Assembly: GCA_017540565.1 (NCBI GenBank)
Contig: JAFYAU010000032.1
Location: 1-64,000, forward strand
Length of the DNA: 64,000 bases
From: Oscillospiraceae bacterium
GTDB taxonomy: Bacteria > Bacillota > Clostridia > Oscillospirales > Oscillospiraceae
Direction of reading: 5' to 3'
Position numbers and translations under genes: made by a program
Part shown: one piece after another, positions 11,989 through 15,652 of the stretch
Position numbering within the stretch: the stretch's first letter is position 1
Layout: every line of letters starts with the position of its first letter
The notes under the pieces: model-generated
The model's database searches: none
Told to the model about the DNA's origin: nothing
The model's input: the letters and a program-made list of their open reading frames with translations, nothing else

Positions 11989-13356
11989 TCAATCCGTGAA
12001 GATGTCGCTCAGGTTCTGGATCTTCATCGTGCTGCACACGACGGTGACGTCGTCGCCGGGCTCAATCGTGGTTGAGCCCTCGGGGATGATGATCTCTCCG
12101 CCGCGCTGGATGGAGAGGATGAGGACACCGTCCTTCATGCGCCGGCCGAGTTCCTTCAGGGGGATCCCCACGTGGCGGGAGCTCTCGGACACGTTGAACT
12201 CCACGGCCTCAGCCGTGCCGTCCGCGATCTGATACAGCGCGAGCATGGAAGAGCCGTGGCTGGCCTGCTGGGAGCGGATGTATTTCAGGACGCTGTATTT
12301 GGTTACGGCCTGCGGGTTGATGAAATCGTCGATGTTCAGCATGGCGATGATGTTCCGGTAGTTCTGCCGGTTCACCTTCGCGATCGCCTTCTCGACTCCG
12401 GTCTGCTTGGCGTACAGGGAGACGATCAGATTGGACTCGTCGTTCCCCGTCAGGGCGACGAAGGCGTCCGAACGGTCGAGGTTCTCCGTGAGAAGGACCT
12501 CTTGGTCCGTGCCGTCGCCGTGGATGATCATGGCCTTCGGCAGCAGCTGGGTCAGCTTCTGGCAGCGGTCCATGTCCTTCTCGAAGATCTTGACGGACAT
12601 TTTCAGGGAATGGAGCATGCGGGTGAGATAGACGGCCGTGCGGCTGCCGCCGACGATCATCACGTGCCGGATCTTCGGACTGTACCTGCCCAGCGCCCGG
12701 AAGAACTCGTTTACGGCCAGAATCTCGCCTCCGACGTAGACCTTGTCTCCGGCGCGGATCACGGTGCTGCCGTTGGGGATGATGGTCTCGCCGCCGCGTT
12801 CGACGGCGCAGATCAGCACGCGGGAACGGCCGAGGTGCCGCTGCACCTCAAGCAGGCTGCGGTCCGCAAGAAAGTCCGACTGCAGCACGCGGAAGCCGAC
12901 CAGCTCGACGCGGCCGCCGTGGAAGGTGTCGATGTCCAGCGCGGCGGGGAAGCGGAGCAGGCGGGATATGTCCGCCGCCGTATCCTGCTCGGGGTTCAGT
13001 ACGAGATCGATCTCGAGCTCCCGGCCCAGGCTCTCCAGCTGGGTGCCGTACTGGGGGTCGCGGATGCGGGCGACCGTGTGCCTGGCGCCCATGCGGCGGG
13101 CGAAGAGGCAGGCCAGCATGTTCACTTCGTCCTGACGGGTGACGGCGACAAAGACGTCGGCGTCGGCCGTGCCGGCGTTCTCCAGAACGGAACGGTTCAG
13201 GCAGTCCCCGTTCAGCGCGAGCACGTCCAGCGCCTCGTTGGCTCTGGCGGTATGCTCCTCCCTGACGTCGATGCAGGTCACGTCATGTCCTTCGTCGGCC
13301 AGACTGGCCGCCAGGGGATACCCGACCTTTCCGAGGCCGGCGATCACGATCTTCAT
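11989..13356 (-). CDS. trkA: Trk system potassium regulatory subunit with two RCK units
   Basis: A 455-residue cytoplasmic protein with two tandem RCK_N + RCK_C units. The first Rossmann fold begins at once (MKIVIAGLGKVGYPLA), and the second begins near residue 230 with HVMIVGGSRTAVYL. The two TrkA_C domains end in similar IPEGSTTIEPGD and IPNGSTVIRAGD turns. These domains bind NAD(H) or nucleotides and gate TrkH. I chose the ATG at 13356 because AGGAGGGAG lies just ahead of it; an in-frame TTG five codons upstream is inside that Shine-Dalgarno sequence. It is the first gene of the trkA-trkH operon and has its own strong promoter. Confidence 0.93.
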   Translation of the reverse strand: MKIVIAGLGKVGYPLAASLADEGHDVTCIDVREEHTARANEALDVLALNGDCLNRSVLENAGTADADVFVAVTRQDEVNMLACLFARRMGARHTVARIRDPQYGTQLESLGRELEIDLVLNPEQDTAADISRLLRFPAALDIDTFHGGRVELVGFRVLQSDFLADRSLLEVQRHLGRSRVLICAVERGGETIIPNGSTVIRAGDKVYVGGEILAVNEFFRALGRYSPKIRHVMIVGGSRTAVYLTRMLHSLKMSVKIFEKDMDRCQKLTQLLPKAMIIHGDGTDQEVLLTENLDRSDAFVALTGNDESNLIVSLYAKQTGVEKAIAKVNRQNYRNIIAMLNIDDFINPQAVTKYSVLKYIRSQQASHGSSMLALYQIADGTAEAVEFNVSESSRHVGIPLKELGRRMKDGVLILSIQRGGEIIIPEGSTTIEPGDDVTVVCSTMKIQNLSDIFTD

Positions 13357-13421
13357 AGGCTCCCTCCTCAACGGCTGCCGCCGGACGGACGGACAACGCG
13401 CTTCAGATATTTTATCCGATG

Positions 13422-13450
13422 ATTATATATCATGGGAAGGCCGTTGTCCA
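13422..13450 (-). promoter_or_regulatory. Promoter of trkA-trkH
   Basis: On the minus strand TGGACA (13450-13445), 17 bp and TATAAT (13427-13422). This is one base short of consensus and lies about 65 bp before the trkA start. Confidence 0.82.
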
Positions 13451-13544: not shown

Positions 13545-13573
13545 TAGACAAACCGCATGGTCTGCGATACAAT
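13545..13573 (+). promoter_or_regulatory. Promoter of the folT-folC riboswitch operon
   Basis: TAGACA (13545-13550), a 17-bp spacer and TACAAT (13568-13573), each 5 of 6 to consensus. Transcription would begin near 13580, about 20 bases before the aptamer. Confidence 0.8.
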
Positions 13574-13598
13574 CCGTCAGTGGAAATGTAAAGTTTCC

Positions 13599-13693
13599 GG
13601 CAGAGTAGAGCTTCCTGCGTCAAGTGCTGTCTGGACGGGGAATTGTCAGACAGACGAAGGGTAACCACGATTAGAAGCTCGTATCCCGCTGCC
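13599..13693 (+). ncRNA. Tetrahydrofolate (THF-I) riboswitch aptamer
   Basis: The conserved elements of the folT-associated THF riboswitch occur in order: AGAGTAG at the start, GCGTcAAGTG, then GAAGGGTA, enclosed by paired strands. The outer stem is GGCAG (13599-13603) with CTGCC (13689-13693). GAGCTTC pairs with GAAGCTC, and CTGTCTG pairs with CAGACAG. The position directly upstream of a folate-type ECF transporter gene and folC is the known context. In this class, binding of reduced folates usually lowers expression of the importer. Confidence 0.9.
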
Positions 13694-13773
13694 ACATACC
13701 GGAGCGCACCTCCAATATGTGGCTCGGCTTGAGTGTACCCTCAGGCAATGGGTACAACACATATTCAGGAGGT
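13686..13773 (+). promoter_or_regulatory. Expression platform of the THF riboswitch that can hide the folT ribosome binding site
   Basis: Segment 13708-13721 (ACCTCCAATATGTG) can pair with 13758-13773, which includes the Shine-Dalgarno AGGAGG, leaving only a CA bulge and enclosing a small hairpin (13734-13740 with 13750-13756). The same segment can instead pair through 13716-13723 with GCCACATA at 13691-13698, which is also the 3' strand of the aptamer outer stem. The two folds exclude each other. Ligand-stabilised aptamer should therefore favour the folded, closed ribosome binding site. Confidence 0.72.
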
Positions 13774-13780
13774 TATTTTT

Positions 13781-14374
13781 ATGCCCGAAAACACCGTGAA
13801 AAAGACAAACCGCGTGCAGCAATTCTTTTCCCCCAGACGCATCTGCGCCATGGCCATGCTGATCGCCCTTCAGATCGTCCTGGCCCGCTTCCTGGGCTGG
13901 CAGGTGTCCGAGGGCCTGCGCATCAGCTTCGAATCCATTCCCGTTCTGATCGCCGGTATGTGGCTGGGACCCGTCGCCGGCCTGATCGTCGGCGTGATCA
14001 GCGACGTGCTCGGCACGGTCATCAGCGGCTACGGCGTGTATTTCGTCCCGCTGGCCATTACCCCGATCGTCAACGGCGTGCTGCCTCCGCTGATCTTCCG
14101 CTATGTGTTCAAGAACAATGTAAACGTCGTCAAGTGCGCGGTGACGCTCGTCATCACACAGCTGATCGCCAGCATGCTGCTCGGCACCTATGCCCTGACC
14201 TGGTACTACAGCCTGTTCGTGCCCAACAAGGACAACGCGTTCACCGTCCTGTTCATCGCGAGGCTCACCAAGCTGGCCACTATCGCCGCTGACACGGTGA
14301 TCGTCACGATCCTGCACATGAGTATGTACAAAAAAGTAATACGGCCCATGTTCGCCGAAAGAAGGAAAGCCTGA
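13781..14374 (+). CDS. folT: Folate-type ECF transporter substrate-binding (S) component
   Basis: A 197-residue membrane protein with about six hydrophobic segments. It has the ECF S-component pattern near the N-terminus (short basic leader, then ICAMAMLIALQIVLARFL) and the GLIVGVISDVLG turn. S components capture a vitamin and dock on a shared EcfAA'T energising module, which is not encoded here. Folate specificity is inferred from the THF riboswitch upstream and folC immediately downstream. The ATG at 13781 has CAGGAGG 8 bp before it. The stop codon directly abuts the folC start. Confidence 0.9.
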   Translation: MPENTVKKTNRVQQFFSPRRICAMAMLIALQIVLARFLGWQVSEGLRISFESIPVLIAGMWLGPVAGLIVGVISDVLGTVISGYGVYFVPLAITPIVNGVLPPLIFRYVFKNNVNVVKCAVTLVITQLIASMLLGTYALTWYYSLFVPNKDNAFTVLFIARLTKLATIAADTVIVTILHMSMYKKVIRPMFAERRKA

Positions 14375-15652
14375 ATGTCATACGAATCCACCCTCGAGTA
14401 CATCGGAAGCGCCAAATGGCAGAGGAGCAAGCCGGGACTGGAAAGGACCCGGGAGCTGTTGCGCTGTCTCGGCAACCCCGAAAAGCAGCTGAAGTTCGTG
14501 CACGTCGCCGGAACGAACGGGAAAGGCAGCACCTGTGCCTGCATTGCGTCCGTGCTGCAGCAGGCCGGCTACAGAACCGGCCTGTACATCTCGCCCTATA
14601 TCAACCGGTTCAACGAACGCATGCAGATCAACGGGGAGGAGATCCCCGACGGCGAGCTTGAACAGATCGTCGACGAGATCCGCCCCTTCGCGGACGCCAT
14701 GGAGGATACCCCGACCGAGTTCGAGGTCATCACCGCCGTCGCGATGAAGTATTTCCTGAACAACAAGGCGGATATCGTGGTGCTCGAGGTGGGACTCGGC
14801 GGAGAACTGGATTCCACGAACGTCATCGACACGCCGGAGGTGGCCGTGATCACGGCCATCGGCCTCGACCATACGGCCCTTCTGGGAAATACGCTCCCCG
14901 AAGTCGCCTCCGCCAAGGCCGGCATCATCAAGGCCGGCGGCCTCGTGTGCGCCTATCCCGCCGACGATGACGTGACGGCGGTCTTCGAAAACAAGTGCCG
15001 CGAGGTCGGCGCCAGCCTGACCATGACGGACATGGGCAGCCTCAATGTGAAGGCCGTCGAACTGGACGGCTGCACCTTCGATTTCGGCGGACTGAAGGAC
15101 GTTTTCGTCCCTCTGGCCGGCAGCTATCAGCCGTGGAACGCGTCGGTTGCCATCACCGCCTGCCGGCTCCTGGCTTCGCGCGGCTGGAAGATCACGGATG
15201 AGGACATCGTGGAAGGACTCGCAAAGGTGAAATGGCCCGGACGGTTCGAGGTCCTGATGAAACATCCGGTGTTCGTCCTGGACGGCGCCCACAATCCCCA
15301 TGGAATCAAGGCGACGGTCGCCAGCCTGAAGGAGCATTTCGGAGACAGGAAGCTCACCTTCGTCATGGGCGTCATGGCTGACAAGGACGTGAGCCATATG
15401 GTCGAGATGATCACGCCTCTGGCGGACCGCGTCTATACGGCCAGGCCGGAGAACTACCGCGCCATGGACGCGATGGATCTGGCGCGCCAGTTCCAGCTCA
15501 GGGGAGCGATGGCGCTGCCCTGTCCGAGCATCCAGAGGGCCGTGGACGAGGCGATCGCCCACGAGGGACCGGACGGCGTCGTGGTAGCTCTCGGATCGCT
15601 CTATTTCTCGAGCGATATCCGGCAGGCCGCCATGAAGCATGTCAAAGACTGA
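14375..15652 (+). CDS. folC: Folylpolyglutamate synthase / dihydrofolate synthase
   Basis: A 425-residue Mur-ligase-like enzyme that adds glutamates to reduced folates and thereby traps them in the cell. The ATP-binding loop HVAGTNGKGSTCA is near residue 45. The expected DSTNVID, AVITAIGLDHTALLGNT and VLDGAHNPHG motifs follow in order. The ATG starts right after the folT stop, with GAAGGAAAG as Shine-Dalgarno, so the two genes form one operon under the THF riboswitch. An uptake plus retention pair is the likely logic. A bidirectional terminator follows. Confidence 0.95.
   Translation: MSYESTLEYIGSAKWQRSKPGLERTRELLRCLGNPEKQLKFVHVAGTNGKGSTCACIASVLQQAGYRTGLYISPYINRFNERMQINGEEIPDGELEQIVDEIRPFADAMEDTPTEFEVITAVAMKYFLNNKADIVVLEVGLGGELDSTNVIDTPEVAVITAIGLDHTALLGNTLPEVASAKAGIIKAGGLVCAYPADDDVTAVFENKCREVGASLTMTDMGSLNVKAVELDGCTFDFGGLKDVFVPLAGSYQPWNASVAITACRLLASRGWKITDEDIVEGLAKVKWPGRFEVLMKHPVFVLDGAHNPHGIKATVASLKEHFGDRKLTFVMGVMADKDVSHMVEMITPLADRVYTARPENYRAMDAMDLARQFQLRGAMALPCPSIQRAVDEAIAHEGPDGVVVALGSLYFSSDIRQAAMKHVKD

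Follow-up and report, generated by a model that had tools for sequence, protein, structure and literature searches.

The THF-I riboswitch (RF01831) is reportedly a finding of Ames et al. in 2010, and crystal structures of its aptamer are said to have been provided in 2011 by Huang et al. and by Trausch et al. For platforms that act on transcription and translation together, Rodionov et al. in 2002 are said to be the source that Barrick and Breaker follow in their survey of 2007. Dual expression platforms of the build considered here are described in that survey, which predates the THF-I class (Barrick and Breaker 2007, PMC2258182). The THF-II class (folE motif) is similar in having THF as its ligand and in hiding the Shine-Dalgarno (SD) sequence in the bound state, but it differs in its aptamer, its occurrence in Rhizobiales and the location of the SD within the aptamer's own P1.

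The window, that is, the whole stretch of 64,000 nucleotides analyzed, carries a leader of the THF-I class. The elements of the leader's aptamer and its surroundings are the following:

11989 to 13371, reverse strand: trkA-like gene.
13545 to 13573, forward strand: promoter-like TAGACA-17-TACAAT ahead of the leader (agrees with the consensus at 10 of 12 positions; judged by consensus only).
13599 to 13693, forward strand: THF-I aptamer (RF01831).
13599 to 13603, forward strand: P1 5' strand, GGCAG (Rfam alignment).
13689 to 13693, forward strand: P1 3' strand, CUGCC, common to the anti-sequestor hairpin (Rfam alignment and segment reading).
13781 to 14374, forward strand: folT, the folate ECF transporter S component (TIGR04518, 100.5 bits, cut-off 60).
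14375 to 15652, forward strand: folC, probably in the same operon (TIGR01499, 386.8 bits).

In the covariance-model search, the aptamer matches the Rfam THF family along the complete model (positions 1-99) with 78.7 bits (E 1.8e-16), the curated cut-off being 36 bits, and this is the only match to the family in the genome. The preliminary description, in which a THF riboswitch in front of folT had been proposed, is borne out on both counts, since the NCBIfam matches place folT and then folC, that is, genes of folate uptake and synthesis, immediately downstream. Throughout the window, no Rfam family other than RF01831 was found at or above its cut-off, the folE-motif (THF-II) aptamer included. 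The FolT protein is 88% identical to FolT of an Oscillospiraceae MAG from sheep omasum.

The sequence features of the THF-I class are present. The aptamer is complete and located upstream of folT, P1 is the switch helix, and the pseudoknot between L3 and J2/1 is represented by GGG at 13637-13639 and CCC at 13685-13687. The ligand residues U7 and U42 correspond to the U at 13606 and the U at 13643, with the THF-I residue numbering mapped onto the leader by eye. Differences stay within the normal variation of the family, for instance a C at the equivalent of U35, as in the Rfam consensus. The leader is an ordinary THF-I riboswitch preceding a folate-uptake gene, and THF is the ligand that its sequence predicts. 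In G004, a genome of the same genus that is 81% complete, no THF riboswitch was found; an assembly gap is possible.

Judging from the promoter-like element at 13545-13573, the leader probably has a length of about 200 nt. The element belongs to a divergent pair of sigma-70-like promoters, the other member of which, TGGACA-17-TATAAT at 13422-13450 on the reverse strand, faces the trkA-like gene.

Downstream of the aptamer, two hairpins compete for the same segment:

13691 to 13723, forward strand: ON hairpin (anti-sequestor and putative antiterminator), pairing 13691-13698 with 13716-13723 and 13701-13704 with 13710-13713 (-17.4 kcal/mol).
13708 to 13773, forward strand: OFF hairpin (SD sequestor and putative terminator stem), pairing 13708-13713 with 13768-13773 and 13714-13721 with 13758-13765 (-28.7 kcal/mol).
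13767 to 13773, forward strand: Shine-Dalgarno AGGAGGT of folT (from the sequence).
13774 to 13780, forward strand: U-tract UAUUUUU between the SD stem and the AUG (from the sequence, and from its enrichment against controls).

In detail, GCCACATA (13691-13698) is the exact reverse complement of TATGTGGC (13716-13723) in eight of eight positions, and ACCTCCAATATGTG (13708-13721) forms 14 pairs with CACATATTCAGGAGGT (13758-13773), complete save for a 2-nt bulge at 13766-13767. The two pairings exclude each other through 13716-13721. Both of them, as well as their exclusivity, had been drawn in the preliminary description and proved exact base for base. Four further pairs of the ON hairpin, between GGAG at 13701-13704 and CUCC at 13710-13713, were absent from that drawing; they extend the hairpin, and therefore the anti-SD core is buried within the ON hairpin itself.

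Such an arrangement is rarely produced by chance. When the linker was shuffled 2000 times with dinucleotides kept, an equally strong duplex in the SD context appeared in 36 shuffles and an equally large gain by the P1 strand in 59, with both together in a single one. A perfect arm of at least 8 covering three P1 bases was found in six of the 2000.

Three further species of the genus (G001-G003) retain the block CACATACCGGAG...CCTCC...ATATGTGGC, and in G066, from another genus, the ON hairpin is kept with G-U changes. When these leaders are aligned as five rows, every row can form the ON hairpin (60 of 60 cells paired); for the SD stem, 88.6% of the cells are paired and the others are register shifts or mismatches. 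Among the close relatives, the SD stem has a single two-sided change and the anti-sequestor has none. The case for the hairpins, as read from the alignment, is one of conservation more than of covariation, covariation proper appearing weak among close relatives. Across 400 genomes of the family, the pattern CACATACCGGAG...CCTCC...TGTGG returned four copies, all from the same genus, so the exact sequence is genus-specific and the architecture is wider.

This wider distribution was examined across the family and order, in the 82 THF-I leaders whose SD could be recognized. When folded in the bound state, 75 of them have a base-paired SD, compared with 46.7 expected if the linkers are shuffled, and 57 possess a competitor that uses the P1 strand, compared with 14.8 expected. 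Therefore, within this family and order, the architecture is the usual one for THF-I leaders. The rows of single leaders are rough because the calls are minimum-energy folds, and it is the shuffles that carry the argument.

In the nearest-neighbor energies, which contain no tertiary terms and in which differences of 2 kcal/mol fall within error, the open-P1 minus closed-P1 difference (aptamer core held) lies between -3.2 and -1.6 kcal/mol as long as the transcript ends at 13730-13770. It becomes +1.8 to +5.2 kcal/mol once 13773 is transcribed, when the SD-stem state is favored. If the P1 strand is blocked, the ON hairpin drops from -17.4 to -7.7 kcal/mol, and the SD stem is worth -28.7. THF is known to stabilize P1 via the pseudoknot (PMC11477058). 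As P1 loses by only 1.6-3.2 kcal/mol in the early interval, a ligand that stabilizes it would shift the early choice towards OFF. At full length the SD stem beats its competitor even without ligand; the switch would therefore have to be kinetic, and the folding suggests such a character. The direction that had been proposed, with THF closing P1 and turning expression off, agrees with the interval energies and with the effect of THF on P1, but static folding of the full leader did not give the two states.

The free minimum-energy fold of 13580-13800, tried as a test of the switch, was rejected for this use, as it yields a third structure that breaks the aptamer. In this global minimum the SD pairs with the 5' strand of P2 (13609-13617 with 13767-13775). 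If that fold were the ligand-free state, the SD would be closed without THF, and the leader would either switch expression on or block it constitutively. The duplex is worth -12.7 kcal/mol in the present leader and -13.0 and -10.7 kcal/mol in G001 and G002, respectively, but it is weak in G003 and G066 (-5.7 and -6.9 kcal/mol). Moreover, a folded aptamer would have to open across 150 nt, and a gene for folate uptake is expected to be repressed by THF and not induced. We regard this reading as very improbable.

For the preferred OFF switch, the following order of events is proposed. Without ligand, the 3' strand of P1 would be drawn during transcription into the hairpin 13691-13723, which would bury the anti-SD, so that RNA polymerase could read on and the SD would remain accessible; this hairpin would have to survive kinetically. 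With THF bound, P1 would retain 13689-13693 and leave a weak upper hairpin, and 13708-13721 would therefore be free to pair with 13758-13773. The resulting stem would hide the SD and, as it leads into UAUUUUU, is also expected to stop transcription immediately ahead of the AUG.

The U-tract had no place in the preliminary description, where the leader was called a translational off-switch. The pairing that sequesters the SD is exact, but "translational" alone does not hold, since the final pair of the OFF stem (A13708-U13773) is followed directly by UAUUUUU and then by the AUG. Within the 10 nt that precede the start codon, five U's are present in 51 of the 91 THF-I leaders (almost every one from a genus of its own); the 178 other genes of this genome with an SD that served as controls (from the window and further stretches) include no such case. 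Whole-genome pattern counts gave two matches to GGAGG-N0-4-TTTTTATG, one of them folT, against about 1200 to GGAGG-N5-9-ATG, chance matches included. The SD stem lies directly on a U-tract that is enriched in THF-I leaders, so a terminator and SD sequestor in one is the best reading, and the OFF hairpin is very probably an SD sequestor that is also built like an intrinsic terminator. No terminator was called here by a consensus scan that allowed only loops of 3-8, because the hairpin is long (66 nt) and has a 2-nt bulge and inner loops.

A purely translational switch, in which the stem would only hide the ribosome binding site and the U's would be a neutral A/U-rich spacer, accords with the SD being wholly paired within the OFF stem and with five relatives that have the SD stem and no U-tract, but the absence of the U5 spacer from the 178 control genes and its rarity genome-wide speak against it, and we think it quite unlikely. 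The five (L034, L069, L019, L080, and L046) are THF-I leaders of the same family and apparent translation-only versions; since leaders without any U-tract exist, such versions are probably also used.

The genome contains one further GGAGG-N0-4-TTTTTATG site, L115 (G000:C19:44350-45100), whose surroundings include an Rfam L10 leader and a tRNA. Five genomes were searched for riboswitches at their few remaining U5-spacer sites; this gave only an L10 leader in the genome of the folT leader and, in one genome, a glycine riboswitch on the opposite strand.

A terminator-like hairpin with a U-tract is found in 64 of the 91 THF-I leaders, with the SD inside it in 50, whereas three of the 178 controls have one near the start. 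In the other 14 leaders the hairpin stands apart from the SD, and therefore termination would recur even where the SD is not involved. Among leaders with a terminator-like hairpin, this separate arrangement is found in 7 of 11 that precede folC or folE, compared with 7 of 53 that precede other genes (Fisher p = 0.001). By these counts, termination is the simplest output that the leaders share, and those in which terminator and SD are fused would hide the SD as well. The same 14 leaders are in line with a purely transcriptional attenuator, in which termination would do all the work and the SD would lie in the stem merely through the compactness of the leader. However, OFF-state read-through RNA would still hold its SD in a 14-pair stem, and some translational effect would be hard to avoid; this reading is unlikely.

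In accordance with the dual platforms known from other riboswitches, the ribosome binding site is within the 3' arm of the regulated hairpin (13768-13773 pairing with 13708-13713), this hairpin with its U-tract ends 7 nt from the AUG, that is, within 10 nt of the start codon, and the competitor hairpin uses the P1 strand. On our own hairpin call, the leader fits the rule of Barrick and Breaker (2007, PMC2258182). The difference is that the platform is counted here for THF-I leaders, within one family and order. In conclusion, this is a known riboswitch class with a platform type already described for other riboswitches, and it is likely that it shuts off folT-folC, by SD hiding and termination together, when reduced folate is abundant. 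We lean, with less assurance, towards a dual platform that recurs in THF-I leaders across the order, mostly before folT, where the U-tract between SD and AUG would turn the SD stem into a start-proximal terminator, the two functions being more often separate in folC/folE leaders and the U5 spacer a possible general marker.

The general view of THF riboswitches is unchanged by this leader. It is a clearly drawn case of a dual platform whose halves could be addressed by separate mutations, in the U-tract on the one side and in the anti-SD on the other. The five-U spacer between SD and AUG may also offer an inexpensive way of spotting regulated start sites in these bacteria.
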